From: Candidatus Ornithomonoglobus merdipullorum
Lineage (GTDB): Bacteria > Bacillota > Clostridia > UBA1381
Assembly (NCBI GenBank): GCA_018714695.1
Contig: DVNB01000050.1
Span: forward strand, 1-40,286
Direction of reading: 5' to 3'
Length of the DNA stretch: 40,286 bases
Part shown: one piece after another, positions 22,679-29,931 of the stretch
Layout: each line of letters opens with the position of its first letter
Position numbering within the stretch: position 1 is the first letter of the stretch
Position numbers and translations under genes: made by a program
Notes under the pieces: model-generated
What the model was told of the DNA's origin: nothing
Databases searched by the model: none
What the model saw: only the letters and a program-made list of their open reading frames with translations

Positions 22679-22992
22679 TTGCAAAATGTATAAATATGTG
22701 ACCCATCAGCCGTTTTCGGCATCCTTCGCATAACGATGCGCATATTCGGGCTTTGGCGTAAGCCGAGACCCGGACCCCCTCAACGCCTGTCGGCGTTGTT
22801 CCCCCTTGCCCAAATCCGACAAGTCGAATTTGGAGGGGGACAAGATGCGGTACACTCGGCGTGCATTGTAATTTAGACTTTACAGTATTGCATTTCGGGG
22901 GAGCTATATCATCTAAAGCGGGGAACAGACTTGCCCGTATCGGGCAATGTCGTGGCCGCCGAACGGCGGCGGGGCGATCATGCATTTTGCAA
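22679..22992. repeat. Possible small inserted element with inverted ends
   Basis: TTGCAAAATGTAT (22679-22691) recurs inverted at 22980-22992 with one mismatch, bounding about 314 bp that contains hairpin repeat copy A and several other hairpins. The arrangement resembles a MITE-like non-autonomous element. No target-site duplication is evident: the flanks GGCA and CGGC differ. Confidence 0.35.
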
Positions 22993-29665: not shown

Positions 29666-29744
29666 TGGTGTTTTTGTCGATTTACCATGATTTTTGAATT
29701 CGCTCGTTACTATTCACAGTCAATGTGAGCCACTGCGAACTGCT

Positions 29745-29824
29745 CCTTGACCCCCTCCGAATTTATCGCGCTGAGCGCGAATAAATTCGGGCAAGGGGGT
29801 TCAACCCCGAAGGTGTTGAGGGGA
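29745..29824 (+). repeat. Hairpin repeat, copy B
   Basis: CCGAATTTAT (29757-29766) pairs perfectly with ATAAATTCGG (29781-29790) around CGCGC-TGA-GCGCG. CCCCCT (29751-29756) pairs with AGGGGG (29794-29799), and TTGA with TTCAA at the base. A second hairpin, CAACCCC-GAA-GGTGTTG (29802-29818), follows, then AGGGG. A separate CTGTCC/GGACAG hairpin lies at 29833-29857. The rest of the 29666-29931 gap holds nothing else that I can name. Confidence 0.72.
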
Positions 29825-29931
29825 TCTGAGCGCTGTCCTACACTATGCTGCGGACAGTGGAACTGTTGCAAAATCCTTAAAGATGTTCAATTTACCGACA
29901 AAAATGATCGGAAAAGCATAAAAAGCAGCAG

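Follow-up and report, generated by a model that had tools for sequence, protein, structure and literature searches.

Two inverted copies of a hairpin repeat lie in the 40,286-nucleotide stretch of the Candidatus Ornithomonoglobus merdipullorum genome analysed here (the window). They raise the question of what they are and of why their stems differ in sequence and yet still pair. The initial annotation proposed that the fold, as RNA or as single-stranded DNA, is under selection, and it assigned the repeat to no family. Our answer is that both features are very probably arms, now decayed, of MITE-like DNA transposons that are non-autonomous. The description of the two copies was accurate: copy A on the minus strand and copy B on the plus strand have in common CTTG, CCCCCTCC, GGGCAAGGGGG, a hairpin whose feet are CAAC/GTTG, and AGGGG as the closing block, and all of these are present. 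The inner stems differ (CCAAAT/ATTTGG in copy A, CCGAATTTAT/ATAAATTCGG in copy B) and each pairs, while in hairpin 2 a G faces C in copy A and a C faces T in copy B.

A covariance model places copy A at 22844-22772 of the minus strand and copy B at 29746-29827 of the plus strand, within a few bases of the limits first assigned. Copy A runs in the order CTTG, TCCCCCT, hairpin 1, a GCA bulge, AGGGGGA, hairpin 2 and AGGGGGTCC. Its outer stem, TCCCCCT/AGGGGGA (22800..22840, minus strand), surrounds hairpin 1 (22810..22833, CCAAAT...ATTTGG) with GCA bulged at 22809-22807, and hairpin 2 (22781..22798) reads CAACGCC-GACA-GGCGTTG. Copy B has the same order of elements with other stem letters: the conserved CTTG is the 5' foot of the arm (29746..29749), the outer stem ACCCCCT/AGGGGGT (29750..29800) surrounds hairpin 1 (CCGAATTTAT...ATAAATTCGG, 29757..29790) with its GCA bulge at 29791-29793, and hairpin 2 (29801..29819) contains the single C-T mismatch. 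The initial annotation had not recorded one more compensatory change: at the base of the C-run, copy B has an A-T pair where copy A has T-A. Folded as RNA, copy A gives z -4.75 (0 of 200 shuffles as good) and its opposite strand z -3.30; copy B gives z -3.56 (1 of 200 shuffles as good) and its opposite strand z -4.89. Since either strand of both copies folds strongly, folding alone does not choose between them.

The likeness of the two copies is not due to chance, given that they match one another with E 1.9e-5 in searches of their own genome and that the genome contains further copies. The repeat therefore extends beyond the pair in the window. In the assembly (2.65 Mb, 124 contigs, 86% complete), DNA searches returned 21 matches with copy A as query and 13 with copy B; whole-element queries for the two families described below returned 25 matches (family 1) and 23 (family 2), sets that overlap and include arm-to-arm matches. 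Merged by place, family 1 occupies approximately 13 places, a count that may include elements cut in two by the assembly, since C58:1-75 and C123:1-168 start at a contig end. Family 2 is present with an arm at four places (C91, C43, C7 and the window at 22725), and further fragments lie at C68:18858, C91:19051 and C63:13254. The covariance model found 29 matches in the same genome, among which some hairpins are counted on each of their strands, with three in G004 and one in G008. At E 0.01, under stricter filters and with 55 candidates scored per genome, it found none in the other 78 of the 81 genomes, so that among these 81 genomes the model places copies in three species of one genus. A DNA search of 61 genomes found matches in two, the source genome and G004, and plasmid and phage collections held no match to the arms. 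A scan for the arm pattern, from which records of the source genome may be left out, gave six matches in genome contigs and one in viral contigs; all seven look like chance hits in unrelated DNA. Five matches came from a scan of viral contigs for the terminal repeat.

We recognise two related families of MITE-like elements with a full length of about 310-340 bp. A full element consists of two inverted arms, each with the structure CTTG-[A/T]CCCCC-T-hairpin 1-GCA bulge-AGGGGG-hairpin 2-GGGGGTCC. Full family 1 elements span 330-339 bp, from GTTACTATTCACAG to an inverted copy of GTTACTATTCACAG, and the terminal inverted repeats expected of a MITE are found at both ends of four such elements (C68a, C99, C68b and, in diverged form, C105). 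Hairpin 1 of family 1 is of the GAATTTAT...ATAAATTC kind in the left arm and of the AAATCCGAC...GTCGGATTT kind in the right arm, and three left arms (C106, C58 and C123) have an extra stretch ahead of hairpin 2. The copies are dispersed, short and, like MITEs, non-coding, in that 12 of 17 loci have no open reading frame of at least 100 amino acids across the repeat; at the remaining five (L024, L030, L033, L047 and L048) a putative frame of 110-127 amino acids crosses it. In the predicted fold of the whole element the terminal repeats, where present, pair with each other, left-arm CTTGACCCCCTCC and GGGCAAGGGGGT pair with their right-arm counterparts, and hairpins 1 and 2 protrude from each strand. 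This pattern is clearest in C68a, and C43 is predicted to fold otherwise. Nine extracted elements, some of them cut short at one end, have predicted energies of -116.9 to -179.8 kcal/mol, and in every case the whole is more stable than its two halves added together. In a lone arm, CCCCCT is often predicted to pair with AGGGGG with GCA bulged, or else the C-run pairs with the last G-run.

Both window features can be placed within this scheme. The interval 29706..29851 (plus strand) is a family 1 element reduced to its left half. Its left terminal inverted repeat, GTTACTATTCACAGTC, occupies 29706..29721, and from base one onward the interval aligns to the left half of the full element at C68:43843 until the alignment fades, the remainder being lost or beyond alignment. 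Copy A belongs to a family 2 single-arm remnant (22725..22844, minus strand). The inner flank of this remnant matches right arms, those of C91 and C43, at scores of 66 and 68, where their left arms score 24 and 27; the outer flank, at 16 to 19 against all, is unrecognisable. Copies A and B are thus parts of longer, two-armed elements from different families, and these flank scores indicate that the initial comparison had set a right-type arm of family 2 beside a left arm of family 1. A further reason for the shared conserved blocks is that one arm is an inverted copy of the other.

Other derivatives were seen in the same genome. Solo-hairpin forms are seen in both families, at L016 (G000 C106:64575-64701) and at L008/L014 (G000 C7:7958-8071), and they seem to trace back to one type of deletion, in which the interior between the two arms' C-runs was lost. 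The solo hairpin at L058 (G000 C91:19051) seemingly joins the left hairpin half of one arm to the right half of the other. At L013 (G000 C43:4136-4521) the right arm has a tandem duplication of hairpin 2, and its hairpin 1 has turned into a perfect palindrome.

Evidence of movement comes from C68a (C68:43843-44177), which has an exact 8-bp duplication, CGGGAGTG, on its two flanks. It is the one full family 1 copy of four with such a duplication, an exact one being absent at C99, C68b and C105. The sequence upstream of C68a is held by all 16 genomes of the genus. Its left flank aligns in each of the 15 relatives, and with both strands read the element matches none of these loci. Both flanks align in three relatives, where gaps of 26 (G008), 34 (G004) and 102 (G007) bases separate them and the element is missing; in G008 the target site is present once, as CAGGAGTG. 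The gene beyond C68a does not align in the other 12 relatives, and their sites are therefore not comparable. Target duplication together with an empty site is thus found for C68a, one of the four full family 1 copies. The idea of an RNA family of its own kind gives way to a MITE-like unit with terminal repeats, one copy of which has an 8-bp duplication and element-free sites in relatives.

Searches for IS66-type and Y1 transposases in the 86%-complete assembly found neither an autonomous element nor a transposase with these ends. The IS66-type DDE domain was absent from the source genome and present in one of the 16 genomes of the genus. Y1 matches occurred in four of the 16; the only one in the source genome is a truncated fragment whose locus has no such hairpin motif, and G004, a carrier of the arms, has no Y1 match. 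By eye, this fragment of 79 amino acids (L132, G000 C100, about 1423-1662) is IS200-like and adjoins an open reading frame resembling FtsZ. The same terminal repeat, with one mismatch, was also seen beside other cargo, with the hairpin GGGGACGGTTC...GAACCGTCCCC, at about 1500-1620 of L080 (G000 C62:17822), and beside similar GGGACAG...CCGTCCCC letters at L079 (G000 C39:1373). Given these repeats, the two kinds of element may use one common transposase.

We examined covariation in a set of 23 arms (22 distinct), leaving out C106a, C7, the right arm of C43, L104, L106, L102, L058, L070 and L137 as decayed or chimeric. The claim that the inner stems covary was borne out. In the hairpin 1 stack, seven of 21 pairs have double changes, as against a shuffled mean of 3.4 (reached in 2 of 500 shuffles); paired cells amount to 94.0% versus 88.2% (0 of 500 as high) and double-changed cells number 30 versus 10.1, figures that are all inflated by kinship among the sequences. 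Further pair types number 17 versus 14.9, a value reached in 44 of 500 shuffles, and slid structures score worse than the hairpin 1 stack. When the 5' and 3' halves of evenly cut hairpin 1 sequences were exchanged between copies, the seven distinct right arms of family 1 proved to be co-adapted, with matched halves at -16.97 and mismatched halves at -12.21 kcal/mol (14 of 20000 permutations as good). For the four distinct left arms the values were -21.55 and -20.10 kcal/mol (4989 of 20000), which is not significant. Tests that pooled left with right arms, or all arms, were set aside because the families differ. Within single elements, a left arm paired with its own right arm did no better than one paired with a right arm from elsewhere (three blocks, seven elements), in a comparison that has little power since the blocks hardly vary.

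The departures from pairing have a direction. Read in arm polarity, hairpins 1 and 2 of the aligned arms, with the left arms of C91 and C43 left out of the count, contain five G·U, no A·C and six other departures (two-sided binomial 0.0625 for 5:0). Addition of four hand-chosen decayed copies (C106a, C7, L104 and L102) brings these to ten, none and seven (two-sided binomial 0.002 for 10:0, a statistic computed after the fact). Counted by events, the outer stem contributes about three G·U and two A·C more, giving 13:2 (binomial 0.007). The polarity of L058 is ambiguous, with three G·U one way and three A·C the other, and it stands outside the tally together with L137, which is truncated, and L070, which is too decayed to align and whose predicted fold contains a single G·U. 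The predicted stems of the right arm of C43 and of L106 have no departures. The seven other mismatches in the hairpin stems indicate that copies also break. The excess of G·U over A·C, in a small tally, hints that selection acts on the arm as a single strand folded in its own polarity.

The covariation may have another cause. A polymerase that pauses at a palindrome can switch template and copy one side of a stem from the other, leaving stems that match without any function; this would compete with selection as the cause of the covariation and would leave the MITE-like nature of the elements untouched. Such switching is argued to be able to create and maintain RNA hairpins (PMC8794818), and it would explain the right-arm hairpin 1 of C43, a perfect palindrome (CCCCCTTGCCCAAATCC...GGATTTGGGCAAGGGGG) whose bulge has been erased as a single copying event would do. 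The left arms, with no significant co-adaptation, are also in keeping with it. The ten uncorrected G·U and no A·C changes argue in the other direction, as template switching predicts no such bias, and so does column pair 16-44, which is A-U, G·U or G-C in different copies and therefore resembles a stepwise path. We regard template switching as quite possible but, on balance, somewhat doubtful. The proposal that the fold is under selection thus survives in part: the G·U bias favours it, while template switching is a live rival and the co-adaptation of left arms is not significant.

Two further readings concern the nature of the elements themselves, and both fit worse than the MITE-like one. REPINs, mobilised by a Y1/RAYT tyrosine transposase acting on tagged single-stranded hairpins, resemble the present elements in having inverted pairs of hairpin arms, a four-base tag at the 5' foot (here CTTG, below a bulged hairpin) and compensatory changes, which PMC3116915 calls common; singlets are decayed remnants (PMC3116915, PMC3733652). 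Our elements are much longer (some 335 bp), have terminal repeats at their outer ends and, in one copy, an 8-bp target duplication, and their tag is CTTG rather than the GTAG or CGTC described in PMC3733652. Neither of those tags nor a RAYT partner was found: the sole Y1 match of the source genome is truncated, in a locus that has no motif, and the arm-bearing G004 has none, making a REP/REPIN-type element extremely unlikely. A structured regulatory RNA or attenuator kept near particular genes would account for stable folds, covariation and the G·U bias. It is nevertheless very unlikely, for the window has no Rfam match at gathering thresholds, and the six copy-bearing loci gave, with E up to 0.1, two weak mir-4520 matches that fall far under the gathering score and are the two strands of one palindrome. 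Furthermore, copies adjoin open reading frames of either orientation, the frames beside the two window copies differ in their Pfam domains, and one copy is missing from the orthologous site in three relatives. Within one element the two opposite arms each carry G·U when read in their respective polarities, a pattern that one transcript could not produce, although the numbers are small.

The MITE-like elements form a new family of a known kind, the nearest systems having been compared by description, Rfam apart. Bacterial MITEs such as QMITE2 of Coxiella, Correia/NEMIS and ERIC are likewise short and intergenic, with terminal inverted repeats and target duplication, which is of 7-9 bp in QMITE2, and their transcripts are predicted to form stable stem-loops (PMC10969869 and PMC2229807). 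Compared by description and Rfam, the present arms differ from known MITEs in that each carries two covarying local hairpins. Also alike by description are Bcr1 of the Bacillus cereus group (167 bp, 31 copies) and other stem-loop repeat families, dispersed and with a conserved predicted structure (PMC2267715), and the CIR repeats of Caulobacter, with two inverted-repeat arms and a linker in the predicted RNA and a CerM-related GANTC motif in a loop (PMC2229807). Stably folding MITEs, REPINs with compensatory changes and two-armed repeats have thus already been published (PMC10969869, PMC3116915 and PMC2229807). Full-text searches of open-licence papers turned up no report of these sequences, and the motif strings searched occur there only in papers whose titles concern other topics, one string a single time in each.

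These observations suggest a life history for the elements. An intact family 1 element would have about 335 bp, GTTACTATTCACAG terminal repeats, two inverted two-hairpin arms and a less conserved centre, both arms presumably descending from one ancestral arm, as their common anatomy implies. A transposase supplied in trans would recognise the terminal repeats and insert the element with an 8-bp target duplication. The arm hairpins would then keep their local pairing while their sequence drifts, the likeliest reason being a need for the arm to fold, whether as RNA or as single-stranded DNA, in the direction from CTTG towards GGGGGTCC. Copies would finally be worn down by truncation and by loss of internal sequence between the C-runs. 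It is conceivable, though improbable, that each arm is a strand-specific single-stranded unit, running from CTTG to GGGGGTCC on opposite strands and selected to remain foldable for a step in movement or maintenance, such as recognition on the lagging strand, so that a cut-and-paste element would operate as a mobile element with two modes. Our findings show that two covarying hairpins spotted by eye can turn out to be what is left of a mobile element. They also provide a compact natural set in which the ratio of G·U to A·C on each strand can separate selection on a fold from repair by template switching.
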